Origin: Flavobacteriales bacterium
GTDB taxonomy: Bacteria > Bacteroidota > Bacteroidia > JACJYZ01
NCBI GenBank assembly: GCA_020435415.1
Contig: JAGQZQ010000007.1
Span: 1 to 62,161, forward strand
Direction of reading: 5' to 3'
DNA: 62,161 bases
Position numbers and translations under genes: made by a program. Below the pieces are notes generated by a model, which searched no databases, had not been told where the DNA came from, and saw only the letters and a program-made list of their open reading frames with translations. Shown one piece after another: positions 26,170-44,465 of this stretch (positions are counted from its first letter, which is position 1; each line of letters opens with the position of its first letter).

Positions 26170-26283
26170 CGGGAGATTGTTTGGTTGGTGTTGTCGTTTA
26201 CATGAAAGTACGTTATAATTTTCATGAATACACCATGGAGTTAAGGAAACACGGGACCTGACTAATGAATGGTTGTTAATGGT

Positions 26284-26466
26284 TAATCCCAAACTATGCA
26301 ATAGAAAATCTTCTATTGCATAACGATTAAGAAAATCAACCTTTCCGGCCCGTACTGCGTGCATCCGAAAAGTGATTTTCTATCCCGTAGGTACGGGAGG
26401 GATAACCCCAACTAAATACAGATAGTTCGGCTCGTTCCTCCACTCCTACTGCATAAGTTGGGTTAA
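26284..26466. repeat. Structured intergenic element, copy A
   Basis: An element of about 180 bp related to the one at 44290-44455. The hairpin ATGCAATAGAA (26296-26306) pairs with TTCTATTGCAT (26311-26321), a perfect 11-bp stem with a 4-base loop. A second perfect 9-bp pair joins AGAAAATCA (26330-26338) and TGATTTTCT (26373-26381). The outer ends also match in inverted orientation (CCCAAnnTATGCA against TGCATAnnTTGGG at 26450-26462). A further small hairpin (CCCGTA/TACGGG) lies near 26384-26397. The left end arm overlaps the first hairpin arm, so the two pairings compete. It may be a MITE-like mobile element or a structured RNA. It sits between the beta-helix gene and higBA. Confidence 0.7.
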
Positions 26467-26549
26467 TGTGATGCCCGGATCGTCACATGGGTGGGTGTCT
26501 TCGTCTGGCCATTCCGTGTCTTCTTACTAACATTTCCTATAACAGTATA

Positions 26550-26583
26550 GAGTAACCAATTTGGTAACTCTTTTGTATCTTTG
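26550..26583 (+). promoter_or_regulatory. higBA promoter and palindromic operator
   Basis: A near-perfect palindrome of 21 bases (26550-26570) has 10-base arms with one mismatch (A-A at 26554/26566) around a central T; the core is ACCAA-T-TTGGT. Five bases after it is TATCTTTG (26576-26583), a perfect Bacteroidota -7 element. The palindrome overlaps the expected -33 region, the place for an autorepressing antitoxin to bind. Confidence 0.65.
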
Positions 26584-26605
26584 TAGTATAATCTCCAGGA
26601 TAACA

Positions 26606-26923
26606 GTGAATATCTACAATCGGGGTTCCGTTACGGCATTTTACAGTAAGCATCCGGATTGCAAGGAAACGCTCGAGAAATGGTATCATGATGTTTTGTC
26701 GAAACGTTGGAAGAAACCGGGAGATTTGACAAGAGATTTCAATACGGCGCGGACGATTAAAAATAGCCGGGCCATTTTTAAGATCAACGGGAATGTGTAC
26801 CGGTTGATCGCTGAGGTCAATTATCAGAAGGGTTGGTTGTTTATAAAATTCATCGGTACACATGCTGCGTATGACAAGATCGATCCGGAAACAATTGATG
26901 CTTATAAACCGAAAAGGACATAA
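26606..26923 (+). CDS. higB: HigB-family mRNA interferase toxin
   Basis: About 105 residues from GTG at 26606; the frame extends upstream but an earlier start would fall inside the promoter. Family members cleave mRNA on the ribosome. The features fit HigB: YSKHPDCKETLEKWY at the N-terminus, the R/K-rich middle, then NGNVYRLIAEVNYQKGWLFIKFIGTHAAYDKID. The last stretch is the hallmark C-terminal strand with the FIGTHxxYDKID motif. It lies two bases upstream of higA and has a palindromic operator in front, so it appears complete and regulated. Confidence 0.85.
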   Translation: MNIYNRGSVTAFYSKHPDCKETLEKWYHDVLSKRWKKPGDLTRDFNTARTIKNSRAIFKINGNVYRLIAEVNYQKGWLFIKFIGTHAAYDKIDPETIDAYKPKRT

Positions 26924-26925
26924 AC

Positions 26926-27282
26926 ATGAAGCTCAAACGAATCAAAACCAAAAAGGATTACCGGGAAGCCCTTGGTCGCTTTGAGGAAATATTCCAGGCA
27001 AAACCGGGAACACCTGAGAGTGATGAAGCGGATGTGCTGGCATTGCTGATTGAGGATTATGAACATCGTCATTATGTGATAGAAGTTCCCGATCCCCTGG
27101 AGGCCATTAAGTATAGAATGGAAGAACAGGGTTTGACCAACAAGGATCTGGCGAATATTCTGGGATATAAAAGCAGGGTAACCGACATCTTCAAAAAGCA
27201 TCGTAAGTTGAATCTGAACATGGTGAGAAAGTTGCACCAGGTATTGAATATTCCGTTGGAAACGCTGGTGAAGGATTATTGA
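26926..27282 (+). CDS. higA: HigA-family antitoxin with XRE helix-turn-helix
   Basis: 118 residues. The N-terminal half is helical and acidic (FEEIFQAKPGTPESDEADVLA), the part expected to bind the toxin. The C-terminal half carries an XRE-type helix-turn-helix (GLTNKDLANILGYKSRVTDIFKKHRKL), which should bind the operator upstream of higB. The toxin-first order and very small gap are normal for higBA. Together with the palindrome at 26550-26570 this makes an intact, self-repressed module. Confidence 0.87.
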   Translation: MKLKRIKTKKDYREALGRFEEIFQAKPGTPESDEADVLALLIEDYEHRHYVIEVPDPLEAIKYRMEEQGLTNKDLANILGYKSRVTDIFKKHRKLNLNMVRKLHQVLNIPLETLVKDY

Positions 27283-32970: not shown

Positions 32971-34503
32971 CCTCAATTCCGCAAGTTCCCTCAATATAAC
33001 AACCTTTGGTGAGTCAGGTCAAAGAATGGGGTGACGACTCTGAATATTTTTTGATTTTTAGCTTACCTGTAGTGCTAGGGTAATGCAATTCCGTACTGTT
33101 TCGGGACTGTTTTTCAGGTCCGGGCGTAGTTATCCCTTTCCCGGGGTTTGTTACCGTCGGGTTGGATGGTTATGATTTGTTCAGGTATATCCCGGGGCGA
33201 ACTGCACGGTGATTTTCCGCGCATGCTTTGTGAGACGGAAGGGATGGATCACGTATCGGTAGATGAATTGTTTGAGTCTCCATTTGATCACATTTTTGCC
33301 GAACCTTTTTCTCAGGGTGGTTTTCAGATACTCAAAGACGATGGCACACCAGGCCATAGCTGCCATATACACCATGTTCATTTTCATGGATGAGAAGGGA
33401 AGATGATTCAGGTTAAAGTCGTTGCCCAGAAAATCAAAGTTTCGTTCGGCTGCGCCCCTGCCGTTGTAGTATTGGATGACTTGCTGCGGGGTCATGGCGG
33501 TATGATTGGTGATGATGCCCCGGTAGATATAGCTTTCCCCGGTGAAGATGTTGGTCTGCTCTCTGATATCCTGATTGCGTTCAACCACCAGGCGGAAGGG
33601 TTTTTTATAACCGGGATGTTTCCATTGCCCTTGGGCCACTTCTATCTCTCTTTGCCCGATAGTGACCTTCTCCCAATGAAGCTCCTGGCCTTGCAGATGA
33701 TGCAGCACATCGCTGCACCGGATGAAAAAAGAGCGACAATTGTTTTTCACTTCTTTGATCACCTTATACTGGCAACCAGCTGCATCGATCCGTAAGCGGT
33801 CCACCTGAATGTTCTCTTCCCGGAGTTTTGTAAAGCAATCTCTGAGCATCAAATGCATGCAGAAGGATGCATTGGTGTTGCCATTGCGCCCTTCAATGTA
33901 CAAGGGTATCCTGCCACTGAAGGCCATCATGGGTTGGTAGCCTACTGTTCCGGTATAGGTACCCTTTGCATCTTTCTTCCCGCACTCAAACACCTTGCCG
34001 TCCACATCCAGATCAATCACCTTCTTGATCATGCCCAGATTTTTGGCGGTGGATATCAGCAACCGGTTCAGTTTATTGTTGCGATTAAACAGATGACAGG
34101 ACCGCTCTGAGAGTACAAGATGATCTTCTACGGCCAGTTCCTTCAATGCATATGCTGCCGTATCCGGACTGCATATGCGCATGGGTAAGGCATCTTTGTG
34201 CGTCCTGCGCAGATACTGAAGGTCCTCCAGGCAACTGCCCCCGCCCAGGGTCATCCCCAGCAATGAACCAAACACTTCATAATGACTGTAGCAGGCATTA
34301 CCGGCGCGTTCTCCCACAACTGCGGTGAAAATGGTGGATAACTTTTTGGAAGAAATTCTATCCCATGCCTTGCGCAATCCACCGTAAACGAAGATATTTG
34401 ATTGTCTTGTCACATCACCAATATGGTGAAAGACACAAAACGCGGAACAACCTGTCTTTACAAGTTTTCCGCGTTTTTATTAACAGCACTTGCGGAATTG
34501 AGG
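32971..34503 (-). mobile_element. IS1380-family insertion sequence
   Basis: About 1.5 kb with one transposase gene read leftward. The proposed ends are a perfect 16-bp inverted repeat, CCTCAATTCCGCAAGT at 32971-32986 and its reverse complement at 34488-34503. No identical 4-bp target duplication is visible (TTAT on the left, TTTA on the right), so the insertion may be old or the ends may be slightly misplaced. About 200 bp separate the transposase stop from the left end, which is long. Confidence 0.65.
33181..34413 (-). CDS. IS1380-family DDE transposase
   Basis: 410 residues from GTG at 34413; no in-frame ATG was found nearby. The DDE catalytic residues can be placed at DLDVDGK (Asp136 or Asp138), LRIDAAG (Asp210) and the YNGRGAAERNFDF motif (Glu323), the last being the IS1380 signature. 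The protein is complete, though slightly shorter than some family members. It could still be active, but the target duplications are not clear. Confidence 0.9.
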   Translation of the reverse strand: MTRQSNIFVYGGLRKAWDRISSKKLSTIFTAVVGERAGNACYSHYEVFGSLLGMTLGGGSCLEDLQYLRRTHKDALPMRICSPDTAAYALKELAVEDHLVLSERSCHLFNRNNKLNRLLISTAKNLGMIKKVIDLDVDGKVFECGKKDAKGTYTGTVGYQPMMAFSGRIPLYIEGRNGNTNASFCMHLMLRDCFTKLREENIQVDRLRIDAAGCQYKVIKEVKNNCRSFFIRCSDVLHHLQGQELHWEKVTIGQREIEVAQGQWKHPGYKKPFRLVVERNQDIREQTNIFTGESYIYRGIITNHTAMTPQQVIQYYNGRGAAERNFDFLGNDFNLNHLPFSSMKMNMVYMAAMAWCAIVFEYLKTTLRKRFGKNVIKWRLKQFIYRYVIHPFRLTKHARKITVQFAPGYT

Positions 34504-44171: not shown

Positions 44172-44289
44172 TGTGATTTGTCTATCGTGAAACGGTCAAA
44201 TGCGTTTTCATGCCATGAAATTAGCGAATTTCCCGGCAAAACAACAAGAAAAAGGAAGCGGATGTTGATCATGACGATTCCCGCAGATC

Positions 44290-44455
44290 AACCCGAATCA
44301 TGCAATAGAAAAAAACTATTGCATGACGCATAAGAAAATCATAGGATACCGATTGTTTGCTTCGGAATAAATTCTTGATTTTCTAATGCGGGATAGCCCC
44401 AGCTAATACATATATAGTTCAGCGCGAAAGGCGCTTCCTAATGCATAATCTGGGA
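44290..44455. repeat. Structured intergenic element, copy B
   Basis: An element of about 165 bp related to 26284-26466. ATGCAATAG (44300-44308) pairs with CTATTGCAT (44316-44324), a perfect 9-bp stem with a 7-base loop. AGAAAATCA (44333-44341) pairs with TGATTTTCT (44376-44384), perfect 9 bp. The ends carry the related CCC..AT.ATGCA (44292-44304) and TGCATAATCTGGG (44442-44454). A small GCGC hairpin near 44422-44434 is specific to this copy. It lies between the divergent hemerythrin and pdxH genes and ends 11 bp before the pdxH promoter. Confidence 0.7.
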
Positions 44456-44465
44456 TCAAACTTTA

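Follow-up and report, generated by a model that had tools for sequence, protein, structure and literature searches.

Hairpin-bearing MITEs with IS1380-type ends in Bacteroidota

Introduction

Gene-less, non-autonomous DNA transposons (MITEs) usually evolve so quickly that they cannot be recognised much outside the lineage of their host. In the Bacteroidota, MITEs have been linked to IS5 (PMC4596501) and to IS982 (PMC9769881). BrickBuilt of Porphyromonas gingivalis, which has IS5-type ends, and the IS982-linked Cardinium MITE are short, multicopy elements with inverted ends and no genes; each has been described in one species or strain, and the word 'hairpin' is not found in the text of either paper. 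Hairpins formed by inverted, end-like units and carrying compensatory changes are known from REPINs (PMC3116915), which are doublets of REP sequences associated with RAYT transposases. Within the IS1380 family, 5-bp repeats have been reported for IS1247 (PMC3281130), and eukaryotic piggyBac, together with its non-autonomous derivatives, has CCC ends and TTAA-like targets (PMC10813416).

Here, we describe an element that occurs twice in the window, by which we mean the whole stretch of 62,161 nucleotides that was analysed, taken from the genome of a Flavobacteriales bacterium (the own genome, G000). It resembles BrickBuilt and the Cardinium MITE in size, lack of genes, inverted ends and copy number, but has a different parental IS family and spans many families of the class. 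Like the REPINs, it forms hairpins with compensatory changes from inverted, end-like units; unlike them, it has DDE-type (IS1380) ends, three hairpins and 5-bp target duplications, whereas REPINs are recognised by having no target-site duplication. It shares CCC ends and TTAA-like targets with piggyBac, but is bacterial and duplicates 5 rather than 4 bp. The openly accessible papers searched describe no IS1380-linked MITE, and neither Rfam nor these papers contain a named family that fits the element, in keeping with the initial annotation of this DNA, which knew of none.

We consider both copies to be a MITE moved in trans by an IS1380-family transposase, with a probability of about 0.83, and the best reading of the data as a whole is a new family of MITEs with structured hairpins, mobilised by the piggyBac-like IS1380. 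The copy number, duplications, shared ends, covariation and spread reported below are observations; from them we infer mobilisation by IS1380 itself. On this reading, IS1380, a bacterial relative of piggyBac, would gain a widespread gene-less passenger. The element is recognisable across Bacteroidota families because compensatory changes preserve its hairpins even as the sequence itself is replaced. The element makes it testable whether palindromes in mobile DNA are kept by selection on structure or by template-switch mutation, and it illustrates that covariation alone is no proof of a functional RNA.

Copies and target duplications

Copy A is a 175-bp element (CCCAAAC...GTTGGG) on the forward strand at 26288-26462, flanked by the target-site duplication TTAAT at 26283-26287 and 26463-26467, as read from the sequence and from the duplication statistics given below. 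The terminal inverted repeats of the MITE are CCCAAACTATGCAATAG and CCCAACTTATGCAGTAG; in copy A, the left one (CCCAAACTATGCAATAG, 26288-26304) has one mismatch to the left end of IS1380, CCCAAATTATGCAATAG. Hairpin H1 (26295-26322; TATGCAATAGAA/TTCTATTGCATA) consists of the left end and its own inverted copy, and is followed by hairpin H2 (26330-26381, inner stem included; AGAAAATCA/TGATTTTCT), by an accessory palindrome, TCCCGTAGGTACGGGA (26383-26398), which is found in a minority of copies, and by a core linker, ATAAC (26402-26406), which lies between GGG and CCC and fits the target consensus. The right module (26407-26462; CCCAACT...GTTGGG) holds hairpin P5, in which an internal end copy is paired with the right terminal repeat; a solo copy of this module exists elsewhere.

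Copy B, 163 bp on the same strand at 44292-44454, is flanked by ATCAA at 44287-44291 and 44455-44459. It contains H1 at 44298-44326 (TCATGCAATAG/CTATTGCATGA), H2 at 44327-44390 (CGCATAAGAAAATCA/TGATTTTCTAATGCG), the core linker ATAGC at 44393-44397 and a right module at 44398-44454 (CCCAGCTAATACAT...ATGCATAATCTGGG), where P5 encloses a further stem, H4 (AGCGC/GCGCT). The shared blocks, the pair of hairpins in each copy and the relatedness of the right ends are all found where the initial annotation placed them, and the first bases that it included turn out to be part of the target duplication. Copy A folds far more stably than its shuffles, with z-scores of -6.7 for RNA and -5.6 for single-stranded DNA, and copy B has a z-score of -5.0 for RNA. 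Copy A lies upstream of a gene pair resembling a HigB toxin and an HTH antitoxin, and copy B upstream of a pyridoxamine-phosphate oxidase gene. The toxin gene (PF09907) and the HTH antitoxin-like gene after it occupy 26561-27282, directly downstream of copy A.

The initial annotation counted two copies and suggested a covariance-model search with a check for compensatory changes. A search with a covariance model yielded 37 matches in the own genome (3.48 Mb, 194 contigs), about 26 of them near full length, and BLAST with copy A likewise returned dozens of matches. An end-pair scan found 30 units, of which one was a spurious overlap and three were mini-copies of 41-42 bp, consisting of two ends back to back; one of these (C53:21562-21602) has GTTAA on both flanks. 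Most copies of the MITE measure 143-175 bp, and the intact long copies in the own genome, at 160-175 bp, are too short to hold a transposase gene.

Exact 5-bp duplications flank 15 of 25 copies in the own genome, the other 10 matching at four of five positions, against a mean of 1.8 and a maximum of 6 exact matches in 2000 permuted pairings. In other genomes, the count is 37 of 61 copies, with a permuted maximum of 20. The target consensus is W-T-N-A-W. Together with the many copies and the ends held in common with IS1380-family IS, these duplications bear out one of the two alternatives first proposed, a MITE with subterminal repeats. The flanking ORF is interrupted at none of 24 sites (crude ORF check), and the search for plasmid hits returned none. 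No exact empty site was found in relatives; at one locus, congeners have no element downstream of the matching gene, and the right flank is not syntenic there.

Architecture and covariation

The aligned representatives share one architecture, CCC - H1 - H2 - GGG followed by the linker RTNAN and by P5. H2 is the long central hairpin. In P5, the internal end copy CCCAACTAATGCAG pairs with the right end CTGCATAAGTTGGG and closes H4; the far end of the element thus pairs with an internal copy (CCCAACTAA). The arms of H1 differ widely in sequence and still pair, as in TATGCAATAG/CTATTGCATA in the own genome, TTACGCATT/AATGCGTAA in genome G103, TAGGCAGTTG/CAACTGCCTA in G028 and TTTATTCATTTGG/CCAAATGAATAAA at locus L172, and P5 in G028 has the arms CCGTACTAAGACAG/CTGTCTAATTACGG. 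H1 is 94% paired over 25 copies, with compensatory outer pairs.

Over 27 diverse copies, the 43 pairs of the structure are 89% paired, a figure favoured by the structure having been read partly off the same alignment, and 30 of the 43 have changed on both sides. Stronger evidence comes from the double-changed cells, which number 161, compared with 51.8 ± 5.6 after shuffling and no more than 46 in the slid controls. The three hairpins, H1, H2 and P5, are kept by paired mutations despite large sequence divergence.

Such covariation could be a mutational by-product. Template switching in quasi-palindromes, a mechanism known in bacteria (PMC7202029), copies one arm onto the other without any selection for the hairpin and is compatible with a MITE. 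Watson-Crick pairs dominate, G.U and A.C being few, as this explanation would have it, and copy A contains an insert, TATCCCG, that is the reverse complement of the core CGGGATA and points to template switching at least sometimes. However, H1, H2 and P5 persist across many families with widely diverged sequence, where drift alone would be expected to erode them, and REPINs with similar compensatory changes have been argued to be selected (PMC3116915). We give template switching as the source of the covariation somewhat less than even odds. A tentative idea, and one that we hold to be on the doubtful side, is that each transposon end lies in a hairpin whose pairing, and not its sequence alone, is needed if the element is to transpose or to be tolerated by its host. 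Were this so, a MITE of a DDE transposase would make use of ends folded as single strands or cruciforms, and would have converged on REPINs.

An extra palindrome, of the TCCCG..CGGGA or CCGAAGCTTCGG type, lies between H2 and the core in the window (26383-26398) and at loci L101, L122, L157 and L182. Its presence at one place in several unrelated lineages is perhaps the result of repeated template switching.

Relationship to IS1380

A search of the own genome with PF13701 located transposase pieces at two contig ends, an N-terminal one on C56, named IS1380 by NCBIfam NF033539, and a C-terminal one on C50, which the same model also detects. The pieces lie directly inside the ends CCCAAATTATGCAATAG and CCCAGATTATGCAGTAG, with the transposase stop codon within the right repeat, and the own IS1380 is known from these two ends, at contig breaks. 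The nearest MITE ends differ from them at one or two of 17 bases. The contig breaks show five left and five right ends of the IS, and in three left/right pairs both ends share an exact 5-bp flank (TTCAT, TTAAA and ATGAT), so that the own IS, too, duplicates 5 bp of its target. Further points of likeness between IS and MITE are the CCC ends and the TTAA-like targets; unlike the IS, the MITE has no transposase gene, and most IS ends lack an inverted copy of the kind seen in H1. Of 16 IS1380 ends tested, a perfect one was present only in genome G138 (L196), where a 10-bp inverted copy of the left end lies about 37 bp into the element.

Elsewhere in the class, IS1380 ends vary as the MITE ends do. 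Genome G099 has the IS1380 ends CCCAAATTACGCAATAG/CCCAGATTACGCATTAG, and most of the MITE copies read in G103 begin with CCCAGATTACGCATTAG as their left end. Genome G068 belongs to the same genus as G103, and its IS1380 ends are CCCAAATTACGCAGTTG/CCCAAATTCCGCAGTTG with a TTTAA duplication. The resident IS1380 of G114, with TATGCA ends, mismatches the MITE ends of that genome (AACAGACAG). A full IS1380 gene is present in 3 of the 12 MITE carriers among 149 relatives, versus 17 of the 149 overall. Three further carriers, G070, G337 and G373, have fragments that belong to the wider PF13701 family, those of G337 and G070 lying near the ends CCCAAATTATGCATTAG. Outside the own genome, the link is therefore circumstantial and statistically weak; draft MAGs lose multicopy IS.

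The MITE could be genuine and yet be moved in most hosts by a transposase other than IS1380. Most host drafts are without IS1380, including those of G103 and G041, which have many copies, but ends and 5-bp duplications match IS1380 in the own genome and in G068 and G099, and among the fetched loci, no alternative autonomous element turned up between matching ends. We regard a different transposase as improbable.

If IS1380 is the driver, its DDE transposase would recognise the CCCAAATTATGCAATAG-like terminal repeats, cut and paste the element in trans and insert it at W-T-N-A-W, giving the 5-bp duplication. Each transposon end stands beside its own inverted copy, so forming H1 and P5 around H2. 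We propose that one hairpin mini-element inserted next to another and that the two, with the 5-mer between them retained, were afterwards mobile as a single unit. The sequence between GGG and the internal CCC is RTNAN-like (ATTAA, ATAAC, ATAAA and others) in about 100 of 105 copies, a count biased by a regular expression in which positions 2 and 4 had to be T and A, although alignments agree. Solo modules of 41-42 and 54 bp occur, and the right module stands alone on C91 with the flanks TTTAA/TTGAA. At C31:27753-28088 of the own genome, two full copies of different subfamilies form a recent tandem, separated by a shared ATAAT, apparently one copy inserted in the target duplication of the other. 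From the target-like linker, the solo modules and this tandem, we infer an origin by fusion of two hairpin mini-elements across a target-site-like 5-mer.

Two candidates for a parent were set aside. The window itself contains a second IS1380-family IS at 32979-34495, whose 410-aa transposase (33181-34413, minus strand) scores 179.7 bits with NF033539 against a cut-off of 180; its candidate 16-bp ends, CCGCAAGTTCCCTCAA/CCGCAAGTGCTGTTAA, are alike at 12 of 16 positions, with a 4-bp AATT repeat. The candidate ends, CCGCAAGT..., differ from the MITE ends. The other candidates were several segments at the fetched loci, 0.7-4.4 kb long and bounded by end-like sequences; the three with ORFs listed contain nothing transposase-like.

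The IS1380 loci L191, L192, L193 and L196 carry small subterminal palindromes, e.g. CTAATGCTTAGCGTTAG or CTACTGCGTAGCAGTAG, about 25-50 bp inside one end. They are built of end-like motifs and are possibly a second transposase site or an operator. At C84:10778-10944 of the own genome, an element of 167 bp combines similar ends (CCCAAATTATGCATTAG...ACATAATATGGG) with an unrelated interior, and perhaps represents another IS1380-type MITE family.

RNA switch or DNA element

The other alternative of the initial annotation was the logic of a switch, in which the left arm TATGCA pairs either with the right arm of H1 or with the far end. On paper both pairings can be drawn, but only the first is kept over the 25 copies. 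Pairing in the end-to-end stem amounts to 82.8%, the same as the mean of its shuffles, and positions 5-8 lack a partner in 10 to 15 of the 25 copies. A switch operating through pairing of the left and right ends was rejected, there being no covariation in that stem.

More broadly, the element could be a structured cis-regulatory or trans-acting RNA, riboswitch-like and only incidentally mobile, with its structure selected in the transcript; the strong covariation across families and the conserved unpaired motifs TAGTTCG and CGGGRTNA would suit such an RNA. A selected RNA strand should show more G.U pairs than A.C mismatches on that strand, but the plus strand, to which the test applies (RNA from the minus strand being outside its reach), has 17 versus 26 of 1121 cells. 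Over 105 copies, the G.U/A.C counts are 9/16 in H1, 6/8 in H2 and 2/28 in P5, uncorrected for shared ancestry, the P5 excess consisting largely of inherited sites. Orientation relative to flanking genes is not fixed: by a crude ORF call, 13 copies lie between codirectional genes, 9 between divergent and 1 between convergent ones, and among the codirectional cases 5 copies run the same way as the genes and 8 the opposite way. Rfam gave no match to the element at gathering or relaxed thresholds. We consider a selected RNA very improbable. A Rho-independent terminator was also rejected, 1 of 23 classifiable copies lying between convergent genes.

Given the lack of a G.U excess, the mixed orientation and the absence of an Rfam match, the constraint looks to be at the level of DNA, and the hairpins would be kept there either by selection for cruciforms or for folded single strands, or by template switching that corrects the palindromes.

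Distribution

A first covariance model, R1, built from the own copies only, matched 12 of 149 relatives. The second, R2, matched 20 of 395 genomes of the class, in 15 genera. When the sample was phylum-wide and included the own genome, R2 matched 6 of 395, of which four lie outside the class and have weaker scores. A pattern scan of one genome per species (84,980 species) returned 62 stretches, all in MAG records named Bacteroidota or subgroups thereof, Chitinophaga, Flavobacteriia and Bacteroidales among them. Some carriers have many copies, with at least 19 in G103.
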